A stretch of DNA of 64,000 nucleotides from positions 1 to 64,000 of the forward strand of contig NZ_CP012850.1 of the NCBI RefSeq assembly GCF_000802205.1, read 5' to 3'. Positions 9,712 through 53,294 of this stretch are shown piece after piece. Origin of the DNA: Candidatus Nitrosocosmicus oleophilus. Lineage in GTDB: Archaea > Thermoproteota > Nitrososphaeria > Nitrososphaerales > Nitrososphaeraceae. A program made the translations under genes and the position numbers. Positions within the stretch are counted from its first letter, which is position 1; every line of letters starts with the position of its first letter. The notes beneath the pieces were generated by a model that did not search any database, had not been told where the DNA came from, and worked only from the letters and a program-made list of their open reading frames with translations.

Positions 9712-11010
9712 TTATTGTTGACCTAATGCGTTATTTCCGCTATTTACTTGGTTTTGGAAGTTTTCGTTGTCACAAGATACAATAGCATCTTTACCGGACA
9801 CACATTGTGAGTTTTGGTTAGAGGATTGTGATTGGCCTATACCTTGGTTAGCCTTGTTACCGCCACTGCCACTACCGCCACTTTGGGCTGCTGCATTGTT
9901 TCCGGTGTTAGTTTGGCTTTGAGTATTCTTGTTGCTACATGAATTGCTTAAGGAACCGCCTGCTACACATTGTGCGTTTTGGTTAGAGGATTGTGATTGG
10001 CCTATACCTTGGTTAGCAGTGTTACCGCCTTTACCACTACCACCTTGTTGTCCTACTGCATTGCTTCCGCTGTTTGCTTGATTTTGAGTACTGGTGTTAT
10101 TACATGAATTAGCTACGTTTCCTCCACCAACGCATTGTGCGTTTTGATTAGAGGTTTGTGATTGGCCTATACCTTGGTTAGCAGTGTTACCGCCTTTACC
10201 ACTACCGCCACTTTGGGCTGCTGCATTGTTTCCGCTGTTTGCTTGATTTTGATTATTTACGTTATTACATGAATTTGCTGTATTTCCACCAGATACACAT
10301 TGTGCGTTTTGATTAGAGGTTTGTGATTGGCCTATACCTTGGTTAGCAGTGTTACCGCCACCACCTTTGCCTTTTCCGCTTCCACTACCGCTGCCAGTAC
10401 CACCTTGTTGTCCTACTGCATTATTTCCGCTGTTTGCTTGATTTTGTTTGTTTACGTTATTTCCCGAACCAGTTGTATCGCCACCAGACACTACACCACT
10501 ATTTTGGTTAGAGGATTGTGATTGGCCTATACCTTGGTTAGCCTTGTTACCGCCTTTGCCACTACCGCCACTTTGGGCTGCTGCATTGTTTCCGGTGTTT
10601 TTTTGATTCTGGTCATTTACATTGTTTCCTGACCCTGCTGTATTACCACCAGACACTACACCGCTGTTTTGGTTAGAGGATTGTGATTGGCCTATACCTT
10701 GGTTAGCCTTGTTACCGCCTTTACCACTACCACCTTGTTGAGCTAATGCGTTGTTTCCGCTGTTTGCTTGATTTTGTGAATTCAAATTATTGCAAGAAAC
10801 AAAAGTACCAGTTCCTGAAACGCACAAGGCATTTTGGGCAGATGATTGTGCTTGACCGATTGCTTGGTTAGCAGTGTTACCGCCTTTACCACTACCACCT
10901 TGTTGAGCTAATGCGTTGTTTCCGCTGTTTGCTTGATTTTGTGAATTCAAATTATTGCAAGAAATAAGAGTACCAGTTCCTGATACACAAACACCAAGTT
11001 GCGTTGAACT
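9712..11010. repeat. Tandem coding repeats of about 150-190 bp, eight copies
   Basis: Eight degenerate repeats of the ANQGIGQSQ...NNALAQQ unit. Stretches of DNA such as the GATTGGCCTATACCTTGGTT segment recur almost unchanged, so recombination between units is likely. The Gly/Ser/Lys linker after unit 4 is expanded (GSGSGSGKGKGGGG). Confidence 0.85.
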
Positions 11011-11178
11011 TTGTGATTGACCTATACCTTGATTGGCTGAATTGCCTTGAGCAAATGCATTCATCGACATCGAAGTTGGCCCTATCAAAAGTAATAATGA
11101 TAGTGCTACTACCGCTGCAAATGACGTTAGGATATTTTTCCCACTGTTCATTTTATATTGAATAATAGAGTTATTCAC
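9712..11178 (-). CDS. Large secreted curlin-like repeat protein, eight units
   Basis: 488 residues from GTG 11178. This start is chosen because the upstream element TTGCAA-N4-TTAGCAAA ends 32 bases before it, exactly as for the ATG of the paralogues at 6292 and 38477; an in-frame ATG inside (MNSGKN) and an upstream one are alternatives. After a signal peptide (ending near MNAFA) come eight units of about 50 residues: ANQGIGQSQSSNQNAQCVSG, variable T-rich turn, SCNN, QNQANSGNNALAQQ, then a GGSGKGGN linker. Units 1, 2 and 5-8 have two Cys; units 3 and 4 replace them by Val/Gly. Gln and Asn recur at fixed spacing, as in beta-solenoid amyloids. Likely a surface or matrix fibre protein; inferred. 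Confidence 0.8.
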   Translation of the reverse strand: MNNSIIQYKMNSGKNILTSFAAVVALSLLLLIGPTSMSMNAFAQGNSANQGIGQSQSSTQLGVCVSGTGTLISCNNLNSQNQANSGNNALAQQGGSGKGGNTANQAIGQAQSSAQNALCVSGTGTFVSCNNLNSQNQANSGNNALAQQGGSGKGGNKANQGIGQSQSSNQNSGVVSGGNTAGSGNNVNDQNQKNTGNNAAAQSGGSGKGGNKANQGIGQSQSSNQNSGVVSGGDTTGSGNNVNKQNQANSGNNAVGQQGGTGSGSGSGKGKGGGGNTANQGIGQSQTSNQNAQCVSGGNTANSCNNVNNQNQANSGNNAAAQSGGSGKGGNTANQGIGQSQTSNQNAQCVGGGNVANSCNNTSTQNQANSGSNAVGQQGGSGKGGNTANQGIGQSQSSNQNAQCVAGGSLSNSCSNKNTQSQTNTGNNAAAQSGGSGSGGNKANQGIGQSQSSNQNSQCVSGKDAIVSCDNENFQNQVNSGNNALGQQ

Positions 11179-11209
11179 CCCCTTATTAACATAAAATAAG
11201 TATATTTGG

Positions 11210-11227
11210 TTTGCTAACAAGTTGCAA
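11210..11227 (-). promoter_or_regulatory. Conserved upstream element TTGCAA-N4-TTAGCAAA
   Basis: On the minus strand TTGCAA (11227-11222) and TTAGCAAA (11217-11210), 32 bases from the GTG at 11178. A TATA-like AAATATACTTATTTTA follows. The four central bases differ from the other two copies, whereas both arms are identical, which points to protein recognition rather than mere recent duplication. Confidence 0.65.
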
Positions 11228-12077: not shown

Positions 12078-12245
12078 TTATGATGTTTCTAACTCATTTA
12101 TCCTTTCTGATACTCCTTTGACCTCTTTCTCTAAATCATTTTTGTATTCTTTCAATAAATCTACTTTTTCCTCACGAGTTAGAAAGCTTCTTGATTTCTG
12201 TGCTCCAACAGCATTTACACCATTGTAACTACAACCGCAACCCAT
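12078..12245 (-). CDS. Small Gly/Cys-headed coiled-coil protein (copy 1), divergent from padR
   Basis: 55 residues, starting MGCGCSYNG and continuing into one helix with heptad character (LTREEKVDLLKEYKNDLEKEVKGVSERINELE). Two Cys at positions 3 and 5 could bind metal or thiol ligands. A paralogue (MGYGCYGSSY...) lies at 37137-37283, with the same helix and the same operator at the same distance. The head-plus-helix plan resembles DUF5320-type small archaeal proteins, but this is tentative. Placement back-to-back with padR and the shared inverted repeats suggest PadR control. Confidence 0.7.
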   Translation of the reverse strand: MGCGCSYNGVNAVGAQKSRSFLTREEKVDLLKEYKNDLEKEVKGVSERINELETS

Positions 12246-12268: not shown

Positions 12269-12321
12269 ATCGGACATACGATACATAGTATTCAAGATGT
12301 ATTTATATATATCGGATACCC
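12269..12321. promoter_or_regulatory. Inverted half-sites around a TATA box, between the coiled-coil gene and padR
   Basis: Left half GGACATACGATA (12272-12283), right half TATCGGATACCC (12310-12321), spacer 26 bases with TATATAAAT in it. The left half begins 27 bases upstream of the ATG at 12245. At 37310-37359 the two halves are perfect inverted copies with the same 26-base spacer. Because the half-sites flank the promoter and padR is adjacent, the simplest reading is a PadR operator controlling both directions. Inferred. Confidence 0.65.
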
Positions 12322-12337
12322 AATATCTCTATTATCT

Positions 12338-12406
12338 ATGCGCGGAGAAAGGGTGGACATAGAAAGAATGAGGAGCAGGTGGAGGAGGAGGATAAGTAGA
12401 GAATGA
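12338..12406 (+). CDS. Possible 22-residue Arg-rich leader peptide coupled to padR
   Basis: ATG 12338 opens a frame MRGERVDIERMRSRWRRRIS plus two residues, ending in TGA that overlaps the ATG of padR (ATGA, 12403-12406). The ATG is about 27 bases after the TATA-like ATTTATATAT, as expected for a leaderless transcript from the operator region. Its purine-rich codons also supply the Shine-Dalgarno-like GGTGGAGGAGGAGG before padR, so the frame may be accidental. Confidence 0.3.
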   Translation: MRGERVDIERMRSRWRRRISRE

Positions 12407-12708
12407 GAGAGGGTGGAGATTGCTGTGACATGAGAGGAATGCTGGGCTTTCTGATCCTTTTCTTACTTTCAAAAAAACCCATGCACGGTCAAGAACTAGC
12501 GGGAGAAATTGCAATTAGAAAAGGTGAGAAGAAACTAAGTCCCGGAACAATATATCCGGCACTAAAAGGTCTAAAAGAATTAGGTTTCATTATAGAGGAA
12601 AGAGACGGAAAAACAATTGTTTACAGTTTGACTGAGAGAGGCGAAAAGGCTTTGAAATTAGCCAAAAGAAAATTCATTAAGACTTTTTTTGGCATCTTCC
12701 CAGAATAG
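12403..12708 (+). CDS. PadR-family transcriptional regulator
   Basis: 101 residues, a winged helix of the PadR family: MRGMLGFLILFLLSKKPMHGQELAGEI, then LSPGTIYPALKGLKELGFIIEERDGKTIVYSLTERGEKAL, a full DNA-binding domain with only a short C-terminal helix (PadR subfamily 2 plan). Start at ATG 12403, with ATG 12430 (before RGML) an alternative. Family knowledge: dimeric repressors that often autoregulate and respond to small molecules. The two inverted half-sites upstream, repeated at 37.3 kb, are candidate operators. Two adjacent Cys (DCCDM) near the N-terminus are unusual and match the Cys head of the divergent protein. Confidence 0.88.
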   Translation: MREGGDCCDMRGMLGFLILFLLSKKPMHGQELAGEIAIRKGEKKLSPGTIYPALKGLKELGFIIEERDGKTIVYSLTERGEKALKLAKRKFIKTFFGIFPE

Positions 12709-12831: not shown

Positions 12832-13836
12832 TCAATTAGACGGTATAAACAACTGAACGTTGTTATTGGTGGTATCTGCCACATATACACGTCCATTGGA
12901 ATCAATGGTTATACTCTCTGGTTTTGAAAATTCCCCAGGACCTTCGCCCATTTGTCCAAATCCTGTGATATAGGTACCGTTTTTTGAAAATATTTGAATT
13001 CGTTGGTTGTCTGAGTCTGTCACATATAGATTTGCGACCTTGTCGAATGCTATTACTGCGGGATGATTAAATTCTCCGGGGCCTTTTCCTTCTGTCCCCC
13101 AATCTCTAAGAAATGTACCGTTGTTAGAGAAAACTTGAATTCGATTATTCCCATAATCAGGCACAAAAACATTATCGCCACTATCAACCGCAACATCCCA
13201 AGGCATTTCAAACTGATCGTTCCCTGGACCTCCGCTACCCCATGAAGCCACTAACGTACCATTGGGAGAGAATTTTTGAATAGTATCAAGATCTCTGTCA
13301 GATACAAAGACGTTATTCTGGGAATCCACTGCAATGCCATGTGGATGCACAAAATTCGCACCACTATTATCATTTTCCCCCCAAGATGTTATGAACGTAC
13401 CATTGGGAGAGAACTTTATAACTCGTTTGTTATTTTGATCTGTAATGTAAATATTCCCTTGCTTATCAATTTCACTGCTGTGAGGATGATTAATAGGAAT
13501 TCCTTTGATAGTTTGATTTCCCCATTTTAGAATAAAATTTCCATTCATATCATATTTCTTTATTTCATTTGACTGAATATCGTTGACATACAAGTTATCG
13601 TTACTATCTACTATTATTCCTTCAGGTTGAAAAATTTGAGTAGAATTTGGGTTTTCAGTTTGTGAAGATACCTCTCTTTTAAAATCAAATTTTGTATCAG
13701 GTGATATATGGCCAAATGAAGAAGGGACATGATTTTGAGCAAATACAATAATCGTTGAACAAGATAACGACATCAAAACAACAGATACAGCGCAACAAAG
13801 AAAAAATTCGCATTTAGTTTGCGTACAGTTCCACAT
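12832..13836 (-). CDS. Secreted NHL-repeat beta-propeller protein
   Basis: 334 residues. Signal-type N-terminus (hydrophobic FFLCCAVSVVLMSLSCSTIIVFA). The rest is six NHL blades with the recurring pattern P-x-G-I-x-V/I-D-x-x-N/G-N-V/I-Y-V-x-D-x-x-N-x-R-I-Q-x-F-x-x-N-G-T. NHL propellers bind proteins, RNA or small ligands or have lyase activity; no catalytic residues can be assigned. Exported; stands alone. Confidence 0.85.
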   Translation of the reverse strand: MWNCTQTKCEFFLCCAVSVVLMSLSCSTIIVFAQNHVPSSFGHISPDTKFDFKREVSSQTENPNSTQIFQPEGIIVDSNDNLYVNDIQSNEIKKYDMNGNFILKWGNQTIKGIPINHPHSSEIDKQGNIYITDQNNKRVIKFSPNGTFITSWGENDNSGANFVHPHGIAVDSQNNVFVSDRDLDTIQKFSPNGTLVASWGSGGPGNDQFEMPWDVAVDSGDNVFVPDYGNNRIQVFSNNGTFLRDWGTEGKGPGEFNHPAVIAFDKVANLYVTDSDNQRIQIFSKNGTYITGFGQMGEGPGEFSKPESITIDSNGRVYVADTTNNNVQLFIPSN

Positions 13837-34514: not shown

Positions 34515-35612
34515 ATGATATCAAAATTTTTAGAGAAAAATCTACCCGTATTCTCTTTTATAGCAATATTAAGTGCGTTAATCCTATTAATCTCCAATTC
34601 ACTGGTTCCCAATCAAGCCCTAGCAATCACATTGGAGGAACAAGAGGGAGTTCCAAATTTGGTTCTAGTTTCGACGTCAACCAATAGTCAACAAGACCCA
34701 AACAATTCAACTTCCGTTAATGCTACTCAAATACCAGAAAATGCCAAGGGACCTACTATACCTTCCAAGGGTTACTTAGTCGAGGAAATACGCGACGGTC
34801 TTTATTGGGTTACTGATGGAGTTTATAATACAATGTTTCTTGTGAGTGATGATGGCGTAATCGCTGTTGATGCACCGCCATCCCTGGATGAAAATTACAT
34901 CAAGGCAATTAGAGAAGTGACAGACAAACCAATAAAATATGTGATTTATAGTCATTCTCATATCGACCATATCGGGGCTGCTGGAAACATATATCCAGAC
35001 AACGTCACTATTGTAGCTCAAGAAGAAACAGCCAAATTATTAAAAATTGCAAATGATTCGAATCGACCAATCCCTACCGTCACCTTCAAGGACAATTATA
35101 ATCTGACCCTGGGTAATCAAACTCTAGAGCTTGACTATAAGGGTGTCAATCATGAACCTGGTAATACATACATTTATGCTCCAAATCAAAAGACGTTGAT
35201 GTTTGTAGACGTCATCTTTCCAGGTTGGGTTCCATTCAAGGATTTGGCTATAACCAAGAATGTATCTGGTTTTGTACAGGCTCATGACATAGTATCAAGT
35301 TACGATTTTGATACGCTTGTGGGTGGTCACCTCACCAGGTTAGGCACTATGGAAGATGTGAAAATTCAAAAGGAATTCATCACGGATTTGATCAATGCTT
35401 CAAAGACAGCAAATAGCAAAATTAACTTTATGGACTTTGTTTCAAAATATGGACTCACAAATCCATGGCTTACATTTTCTGAATACGCTGATGCAGTAAC
35501 TGATGAATGCACTAATACAATGTTAGCAAAATGGAAAGATCGATTAGGAGGAGCAGAACAATTTACAGAGAGTCATTGTTGGATAATGACTGAAAGTCAG
35601 AGAGTTGATTGA
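34515..35612 (+). CDS. Secreted metallo-beta-lactamase-fold hydrolase
   Basis: 365 residues. Signal-type N-terminus (VFSFIAILSALILLISNSLVPNQALA) then a linker and an MBL fold: VIAVDAPPSLDENYI, metal motif SHSHIDHIGAAGN, HEPGNTYIYAPNQKTLMFVDVIF, and GGHLTRLG with the last His. The HxHxDH set is complete, so a two-metal hydrolase acting outside the membrane. Resembles the quinoprotein-relay/SoxH-like and lactamase-like groups rather than true lactamases; substrate unknown. Confidence 0.85.
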   Translation: MISKFLEKNLPVFSFIAILSALILLISNSLVPNQALAITLEEQEGVPNLVLVSTSTNSQQDPNNSTSVNATQIPENAKGPTIPSKGYLVEEIRDGLYWVTDGVYNTMFLVSDDGVIAVDAPPSLDENYIKAIREVTDKPIKYVIYSHSHIDHIGAAGNIYPDNVTIVAQEETAKLLKIANDSNRPIPTVTFKDNYNLTLGNQTLELDYKGVNHEPGNTYIYAPNQKTLMFVDVIFPGWVPFKDLAITKNVSGFVQAHDIVSSYDFDTLVGGHLTRLGTMEDVKIQKEFITDLINASKTANSKINFMDFVSKYGLTNPWLTFSEYADAVTDECTNTMLAKWKDRLGGAEQFTESHCWIMTESQRVD

Positions 35613-37136: not shown

Positions 37137-37283
37137 TTAATTTACCTCTAATTCTTTTATTCTCTCCTCTACTCCTTGAACCTCTCTTTTCAAATCTTGA
37201 TGATACGCCTTCAATAGTTGAATTTTCTCTTCTTTGGTTAGAAAACTTCTTGTATAGCTTGATCCATAGCAACCGTAACCCAT
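37137..37283 (-). CDS. Small Gly/Cys-headed coiled-coil protein (copy 2)
   Basis: 48 residues: MGYGCYGSSYTRSFLTKEEK then a heptad helix (IQLLKAYHQDLKREVQGVEERIKELE). Closely related to 12078-12245 (SFLT-x-EEK, V-x-GV-x-ERI-x-ELE shared), with a shorter head holding one Cys. The operator half-sites and their distance to the ATG are the same as at copy 1, but no padR gene lies beside it. Likely a second target of the PadR at 12403. Confidence 0.7.
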   Translation of the reverse strand: MGYGCYGSSYTRSFLTKEEKIQLLKAYHQDLKREVQGVEERIKELEVN

Positions 37284-37309
37284 TATTTCACCCCCCTATC
37301 CATTCCATC

Positions 37310-37359
37310 GGACATACGATACATTAAGAATAGGTCGTATTTATATATATCGTATGTCC
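37310..37359. promoter_or_regulatory. Perfect 12-bp inverted half-sites around a TATA box (second copy of the PadR-locus operator)
   Basis: GGACATACGATA at 37310-37321 and TATCGTATGTCC at 37348-37359 are exact reverse complements, 26 bases apart, with TTATATATAT between. The left half starts 27 bases upstream of the ATG at 37283, as at 12272. Conservation of both halves and spacer length while the rest of the flanks diverge supports function. Confidence 0.7.
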
Positions 37360-37792
37360 AATATCATTTTCTGATTTACTGAATTAACTGAAGGCAGGAG
37401 TAAAGATCCGAAGGACGATAACGCCTTCGACTCCTTTCTCTCAAAAAGCAGCAATAAGGCACGGCACTATATGGTTACAAATGGGATAAAGAAGGAAAAA
37501 CCATCATAAAAGCGGCTAGTTCTACTTCCTTACAATATTCGGTGATTTGATCAGAGCAAAATGATAGACTGAAAAACCACAATATTAAACACCTGTACAA
37601 ACATGCAATTTTACAAATGGGATCAAGATCGGAATTTCAATTTATTAACCATTTTGGCAAGTAGAACTTGGTCGAACAAAGTAGCATTAAAAACTATGGG
37701 TAGAATCAATTAGAAGAGTGATACTCACCATGATATCAAAACAAGCCATAAATGATTATAGTTTTATTTATTAACTCCTATGGAGATAGCTA
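37360..37792. other. Intergenic stretch, possibly decayed sequence
   Basis: 433 bases with short open frames only (for example one reading NKARHYMVTNGIKKEKPS near 37455-37510) and no start codon or full domain. May hold remnants of an older gene; I cannot identify it. Confidence 0.35.
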
Positions 37793-38042: not shown

Positions 38043-38477
38043 CTATCCTTGTGCTAATGCGTTACTTCCTGTGTTTTCTTGACTTTGGACGTTAATGTTG
38101 TTACCAGAACCGATTGTGTCTCCACCAGATACTACTTGGCTGTTTTGGCTAGAAGATTGAGATTGGCTGATACTTTGTTCTGCAGAGTTTCCACCCTGTC
38201 CACCTTGTGCTAATGCATTGTTTCCACTATTCTTTTGGTGTTGGAAGCTGACATTGTTGCATGAGAGAAAGGTTGTTACGCCTGATACACATTGTGCATT
38301 TTGGTTTGATGATTGTGATTGGTCTATGGACTGTTTTGCTTTATTTTTCTTGTTGTGTGTGGCTAAAGCATCATCTACATTGAGCATTGGACTGACAAAT
38401 AGGGCTAATGCTACCACTATTGCAATGGATGCGACAAAGAGTTTGTTGTTTTTGTAGTGAATATTTGTTTTATTCAT
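38043..38477 (-). CDS. Secreted two-unit curlin-like repeat protein (copy B)
   Basis: 144 residues from ATG 38477. Almost identical in protein and DNA to 6292-6726, in opposite orientation 32 kb away; differences are a few synonymous changes and the last residue (Gly for Ser). Homology continues about 100 bases upstream through the TTGCAA-N4-TTAGCAAA element and TATA box, then stops, and ends at the stop codon downstream. A recent duplication or gene conversion. Units: one with a Cys pair, one Cys-less. Confidence 0.8.
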   Translation of the reverse strand: MNKTNIHYKNNKLFVASIAIVVALALFVSPMLNVDDALATHNKKNKAKQSIDQSQSSNQNAQCVSGVTTFLSCNNVSFQHQKNSGNNALAQGGQGGNSAEQSISQSQSSSQNSQVVSGGDTIGSGNNINVQSQENTGSNALAQG

Positions 38478-38508
38478 ACCCGTCATACAATAGAAAAAAT
38501 ATAATGGA

Positions 38509-38526
38509 TTTGCTAACTGATTGCAA
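38509..38526 (-). promoter_or_regulatory. Conserved upstream element TTGCAA-N4-TTAGCAAA (third copy)
   Basis: Minus-strand TTGCAA (38526-38521) and TTAGCAAA (38516-38509), 32 bases before the ATG at 38477, next to TATATTTTTTC. Same sequence as at 6243-6260 because the whole region was duplicated. Confidence 0.65.
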
Positions 38527-38903
38527 TAAACTAATATTCTAGCAGTTTTAGAATCAGATAATCGGTTTAAAAAATTAGAAAAAATCCGGTAGGAATTTGA
38601 GAAAAAGATTAGAAAATATATCAACTAAAGAGTAAAGACTAGACTTGGAAATTTCATCTAAACTCATTATATCACTAAAATTTGATACTGATAAATAAGT
38701 TCAACCAAATTGAAGTTTCATTATTAACTACATCTCATCACAATATAAATGGTCGCACAATATAGAAGATCATTTACATATGAAATTATGAATTTTGAAT
38801 GGCTTTTAAACAAATAAGGTAAAATTCGGATAATACCCATTCAAAATTGTATATAATTATATATTTATGATATGTTTAATACGAGCCATTTATCTATATA
38901 GCC
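38527..38903. other. Intergenic stretch between divergent genes
   Basis: 377 AT-rich bases. The first 70 belong to the duplicated upstream region shared with 6.2 kb. TATATTTATGATATG near 38860-38875 is a likely promoter for the gene at 38904. Confidence 0.45.
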
Positions 38904-52754: not shown

Positions 52755-53294
52755 CTATTGAGGCAACTGATACTTCCAATTAACCACTACATTGTCTATA
52801 AGAAAGTTGTCATCTGTGTTAGGGTTCCTTAAGAACTGTATACTGTTCTCACCTTGTTTTAGAACATCTTCATCTAGCAAGACTGTTAAGGTTGCCCAGT
52901 TTTCGGTTCCAGAATTTCCAAAGTTACCCCCGGCGCTAGTTACATGTTGTCCATTAATTACTATTGTATGTCCCTCAAAGTATGATCCGTATATTTGTAC
53001 CAGTAGATATCCGCTTCCACTTGGGGTACTGTCAATTGTGAAATTAAAAGTGTCTGACACATCACCTCTATATGGATAACCTGGTGCAAATATATCGTTT
53101 TTATTGTCTCCAAGGTGTTGTTGGATAGGCACTACCACAAAGTCCGAAGATTGCATCGTGGTAGTTGTCGTAGTCGTTGTTACGTTTTGGCCGCTTACAA
53201 CATTAACTGACGCACCTTCCAAACTCAATATTCCAAATAATGCTATCATACTAATAAAAACAATATGTCCTTTTACAATTGAATGATTTGCCAT
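52755..53294 (-). CDS. Secreted beta-sandwich protein with Thr tract
   Basis: 179 residues. Signal peptide (IVFISMIALFGILSLEGASV), then a run of eight Thr encoded by a repetitive ACN tract, then a jelly-roll-like domain (FNFTIDSTPSGSGYLLVQIYGSYFEGHTIVINGQHV, WATLTVLLDEDVLKQGENSIQFLRNPNTDDNFLIDNVVVNWKYQ). The last part resembles carbohydrate-binding jelly rolls. Function inferred only as surface binding. Confidence 0.65.
   Translation of the reverse strand: MANHSIVKGHIVFISMIALFGILSLEGASVNVVSGQNVTTTTTTTTMQSSDFVVVPIQQHLGDNKNDIFAPGYPYRGDVSDTFNFTIDSTPSGSGYLLVQIYGSYFEGHTIVINGQHVTSAGGNFGNSGTENWATLTVLLDEDVLKQGENSIQFLRNPNTDDNFLIDNVVVNWKYQLPQ

Follow-up and report, generated by a model that had tools for sequence, protein, structure and literature searches.

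Organization of the locus

The window analyzed here comprises the first 64,000 nucleotides of contig NZ_CP012850.1 of Candidatus Nitrosocosmicus oleophilus. It carries two homologous small genes on the minus strand, small gene A (12078–12245; 55 aa) and small gene B (37137–37283; 48 aa). The product of small gene A has a Gly/Cys-bearing N-terminus (MGCGC) and one C-terminal helix; structure prediction yields one helix and a disordered Cys-bearing N-terminus. On the plus strand, padR (12403–12708) encodes a 101-aa winged-helix regulator with an N-terminal DCCDMRGM motif. Downstream of small gene A lies the gene of an MGMT-type DNA-binding domain protein (PF01035; 11583–11951), and downstream of padR, in convergent orientation, that of an NHL-repeat beta-propeller protein with a signal-like N-terminus (12832–13836). 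Two other minus-strand ORFs of the window (9712–11220 and 38043–38624), both with Asn/Gln-rich repeats of the NQGIGQSQSSNQNAQCVSG type, appear to be mutually related.

Judged by profile and predicted fold, the padR product is a PadR-family regulator, set apart by its operator, the layout of its promoter and its partner family. Its sequence matches the PadR profile PF03551 with 48.4 bits (gathering score 27), and the AlphaFold model (mean pLDDT 87) displays a winged-helix fold with a long C-terminal helix. The best fold matches of this model are TA0346, LmrR and Rv3488, and RosR of Halobacterium is also retrieved. Rv3488 of Mycobacterium tuberculosis, which senses metal, has the PadR fold and is a close structural match, although the protein studied here does not reach the equivalog cut-off of the Rv3488-type family (NCBIfam NF053635; 28.8 vs. 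140 bits). The Cys preceding Asp-Met-Arg-Gly is present in 105/105 homologues and the Cys-Cys pair in 87/105, as expected of a thiol- or metalloid-responsive repressor; these counts are partly selected, because DCCDMRGM was among the patterns used for fetching the relatives. Most of the 15 more distant class matches, found without this pattern, keep only the second Cys. In the PadR fold, the invariant N-terminal Cys is placed just before helix 1.

Two dyads flank a shared TATA box

The earlier note on this DNA described inverted 12-mers, 26 bases apart, at 12272–12321 and 37310–37359, each 27 bases from the ATG of a small gene. These coordinates are borne out: GGACATACGATA is found on the plus strand at 12272–12283 and 37310–37321, and the arm-to-ATG distance is 27 bases at both sites, the small-gene ATGs being located at 12245 and 37283. 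At the second site (site B) the exact inverse of GGACATACGATA occupies 37348–37359, so that the two arms are perfect and 26 bases apart, whereas at the first (site A) one arm is intact and the other (12310–12321; TATCGGATACCC) is degenerate, matching at only 9/12 positions. At the same GC content and spacing, a perfect 12-mer inverted pair would be expected by chance 0.13 times per 64 kb.

The alignment of about 50 orthologous promoters reveals the underlying anatomy. The arms of what had been taken for a single inverted repeat with a 26-bp spacing are present, but they belong to two separate palindromes: each is part of its own ~18-bp palindrome with the core ATYGGNNNNCCRAT, and two complete dyads flank one near-symmetric TATA box. 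Because each arm is near-palindromic, the inverted relation between them follows almost automatically. Towards padR the full palindrome of the alignment reads ATATYGGATATCCGATAT, and towards the small gene ATATCGTATGTCCGATAT; their dyad symmetry (6.0 of 9 pairs) exceeds that of shuffled sequences (2.6, with a maximum of 3.5 in 2000 shuffles). Sites A and B are less regular than the consensus of the relatives, having 5 to 7 of 9 symmetric pairs. At site A, operator 2 (ATCGGACATACGAT; 12269–12282, dyad centre 12275.5) lies where transcription of small gene A is expected to start, followed by a TATA element (ATTTATATATAT; 12301–12312) whose near-symmetry would make it usable in both directions, and by operator 1 (ATCGGATACCCAAT; 12311–12324, dyad centre 12317.5), which directly adjoins the TATA box towards padR, its centre 42 bp from that of operator 2. 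Site B has the same layout, with operator 2 (ATCGGACATACGAT) at 37307–37320 (dyad centre 37313.5), the TATA element (ATTTATATATAT) at 37339–37350 and operator 1 (ATCGTATGTCCAAT) at 37349–37362 (dyad centre 37355.5), the centres being again 42 bp apart. The operator pair and the TATA box are kept in about 50 loci across many genera, with a variable spacer; the dyad centres are 40–42 bp apart in 51/54 loci. The statement that only these parts of the intergenic DNA are conserved does not hold, since the bases closest to the ATG, including the ribosome-binding site, are also conserved.

In most of the scorable loci, the start codon in the padR direction is located 25–36 nt from the TATA box, so that the promoter looks bidirectional; this spacing is as would be expected for a leaderless transcript. 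The small-gene ATG, in most loci, lies ~30 nt beyond the centre of the second dyad and follows a ribosome-binding site. At site A, a 22-codon open frame (12338–12406, plus strand) starts with an ATG 32 nt from the TATA box and ends with a stop codon overlapping the ATG of padR (ATGA). This frame with its overlapping stop is common to N. oleophilus and G333, while in some relatives (e.g., G209 and G126) the corresponding stretch is in frame with padR and fused to it. A frameshift with translational coupling is a possible explanation for the 22-codon frame.

Genome-wide occurrence of the composite

A genome scan for the half-sites, as suggested by the earlier note, gave different outcomes for the isolated arm and for the whole arrangement. 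Lone 12-mers with ≤2 mismatches are at background (246 genome-wide vs. 270 for the reversed control), so that information comes from the composite only. With ≤3 mismatches allowed, the dyad-plus-TATA pattern has 3 matches in the genome, two of which are sites A and B, and 0 in the control. Within the genus, a composite profile reaches E ≤ 1e-12 only at small-gene promoters; the next matches have E ~0.003, leaving aside opposite-strand readings of the same sites and a relic in G187. In this genome, the composite with its TATA box is essentially confined to the two small-gene promoters. A pattern match at 2784832 (2 mismatches) was set aside, as it is missed by the double-operator profile, and the near-matches at 52962, which falls within a coding ORF, and at 34749 (2 mismatches) are attributed to chance.

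Co-occurrence of padR and the operators

Among 400 Nitrososphaeria genomes, the composite is found in 37/37 of those with this PadR clade and in 3 of about 363 of those without it, a contrast for which Fisher's P overstates the link because related genomes are not independent. G114 and G253, both draft assemblies, carry an intact composite with no PadR detected; in G187, which has no PadR match, the operators have eroded and the small gene has become a pseudogene. The double operator seen in G253 before an apparently decayed HtrA-like start (G253:C127:4985-5044; L248) is a strong one. Where contigs are intact, padR is almost always transcribed divergently from the small gene.

Within Nitrosocosmicus, padR is linked to small gene A in six genomes and to small gene B in five, and the operators at both small genes are generally retained whichever one padR adjoins. 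The padR genes beside A form a clade apart from those beside B, which is consistent with reciprocal loss after duplication or with relocation; G182 keeps two padR copies, one broken by stops. Under either history, one PadR would now face two operators in most Nitrosocosmicus species. The invariable co-occurrence, the position of the padR start one TATA-to-start distance away, and the linkage of padR to A or B according to species with both operators generally kept, all support the earlier proposal that PadR probably controls both small genes and its own gene.

Further candidate targets and other archaea

Promoter comparison extends the regulon beyond two loci. The promoter of a Rieske gene carries the operator in 3/3 genomes having this gene, including the one at 228386–228805 here, the profile matches being weak; likewise, weak matches recur at the promoters of orthologous SDR dehydrogenase genes in relatives. 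Both are single-operator promoters, with only the site upstream of the TATA box, and one search pattern was drawn partly from such sites, so that its exact matches are not independent evidence. In two other genera (g5 and g8) the complete composite precedes the gene of an HtrA-type protease, which in one genome is divergent to an SDR gene.

Beyond this lineage, the same PadR type is divergent from the arsenite methyltransferase gene arsM in Methanosarcinaceae and in Hermod-, Thor- and Bathyarchaeota; the arsM partner is above the NCBIfam cut-off in 5/5 tested cases, and the remaining arsM-like neighbours were judged by eye. In DPANN archaea the partner is again the Cys-bearing small protein, while more distant, single-Cys PadR relatives adjoin a glyoxalase-fold or FMN-reductase gene. 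At one of these distant loci (L161, in G055), an HtrA-like gene adjoins the divergent pair of FMN reductase and PadR. The arsM gene of N. oleophilus itself (1820371–1821171) has a separate divergent regulator-like gene and lacks this operator. This rules it out as a regulon member, and in this species a role of arsenic as the signal thus lacks direct support. In the open literature searched, we found no description of an archaeal PadR with this operator or of an arsM-PadR link.

Proposed mechanism and alternative explanations

We propose that the sites are operators of the PadR encoded at 12403–12708, which would act as the autoregulated repressor of a thiol- or metalloid-sensing regulon, and we assign to this reading a probability of about 0.8. 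Operator anatomy, conservation, co-occurrence, recurrence at other genes and cysteine conservation are read directly from the sequences; from these we infer DNA binding, repression, the inducer and the function of the small proteins. PadR dimers would bind the two ~18-bp palindromes, about four DNA turns apart: one directly against the TATA box, towards padR, and a second over the small-gene start site. Once occupied, the operators would block TBP/TFB and the polymerase, silencing both small genes and padR, the latter along with small gene A because the TATA box is common to both at site A. The positions of the two dyads argue for such a repression by occlusion. The inducer, possibly an arsenite-like metalloid, an electrophile or an oxidant, would act on the conserved N-terminal cysteines and release PadR, thereby switching on the Cys-bearing small proteins and the Rieske protein here, and the HtrA protease, the SDR dehydrogenase or ArsM in relatives. 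It is the N-terminal Cys together with the partner genes that point to thiol-reactive or metalloid inducers.

PadR could instead be an activator or a dual regulator, recruiting TBP/TFB in one direction from the TATA-adjacent dyad and repressing through the other. Indeed, read towards the small gene, one dyad is positioned directly upstream of the TATA box, from where archaeal activators can act, and the Rieske and SDR promoters have only this upstream site. However, read towards padR, the same dyad falls between the TATA box and the start codon, and the second overlies the site where the small-gene transcript is expected to start; both placements are typical of repressors, and we consider either mode unlikely. 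Occurrence of the composite in G114 and G253 would fit a different regulator binding the palindromes, padR being merely a linked target, but this is less probable still, given that all PadR-clade genomes have the composite, that the link with this PadR type persists across phyla while the partner genes change, and that the operators are eroded in G187, where padR is missing. Finally, an RNA element, e.g., a hairpin or an attenuator, could arise if the inverted repeats paired within a transcript containing the two; yet with the TATA box between the arms, the small-gene transcript would start near operator 2 and never contain operator 1, and each arm alone is a DNA-type dyad, which makes this explanation very improbable.

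Comparison with known systems

The putative repressor resembles LmrR of Lactococcus and cdPadR1 of Clostridioides difficile as a small winged-helix regulator, by Pfam (PF03551) and by fold. PadR proteins bind inverted-repeat operators, often located in the promoters of their own genes. Autoregulation is a known property of such proteins, and cdPadR1 has two inverted-repeat sites in its own promoter (PMC5050560). Known PadR operators read ATGT-N8-ACAT or TACT-N11/12-AGTA, in contrast to ATYGGNNNNCCRAT here. This system also differs from LmrR and cdPadR1 by its N-terminal Cys-Cys-Asp motif and by a nearly constant spacing of four DNA turns about an archaeal TATA box. RosR (VNG0258H) of Halobacterium salinarum, an archaeal winged-helix protein that the cell needs to respond to extreme oxidative stress (PMC3443676), is a close structural match to PadR. 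It is absent from the sequence matches of PadR; the comparison covered the fold.

Few regulons have, to our knowledge, been characterized in ammonia-oxidising archaea. In the present case the regulator, the operator and several of the targets are identifiable from sequence, so that binding and induction can be tested directly. The presence of the same switch in several archaeal phyla, in some with arsM as output, offers a route to metalloid or thiol stress sensing in archaea, and links a small-protein family that lacks annotation to a class of function. More tentatively, and with the odds in our view against it, these loci might represent an undescribed, phylum-spanning archaeal stress regulon, built on a Cys-Cys PadR and a portable, bidirectional promoter with two dyads. 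Its output would be arsenite methylation in several phyla and, in Nitrososphaerales and DPANN archaea, a new family of tiny Cys-bearing coiled-coil proteins, which would bind the toxic thiol-reactive agent directly. The suggestion made earlier that the small protein is the effector arm of the circuit is a guess. With respect to known families, the two window proteins score 16.7 and 16.6 bits against DUF5320 (PF17253; gathering threshold 27), to the end of which the C-terminal helix of the small proteins shows a resemblance: 17/21 members give weak matches, aligning to the C-terminal third of the profile only.
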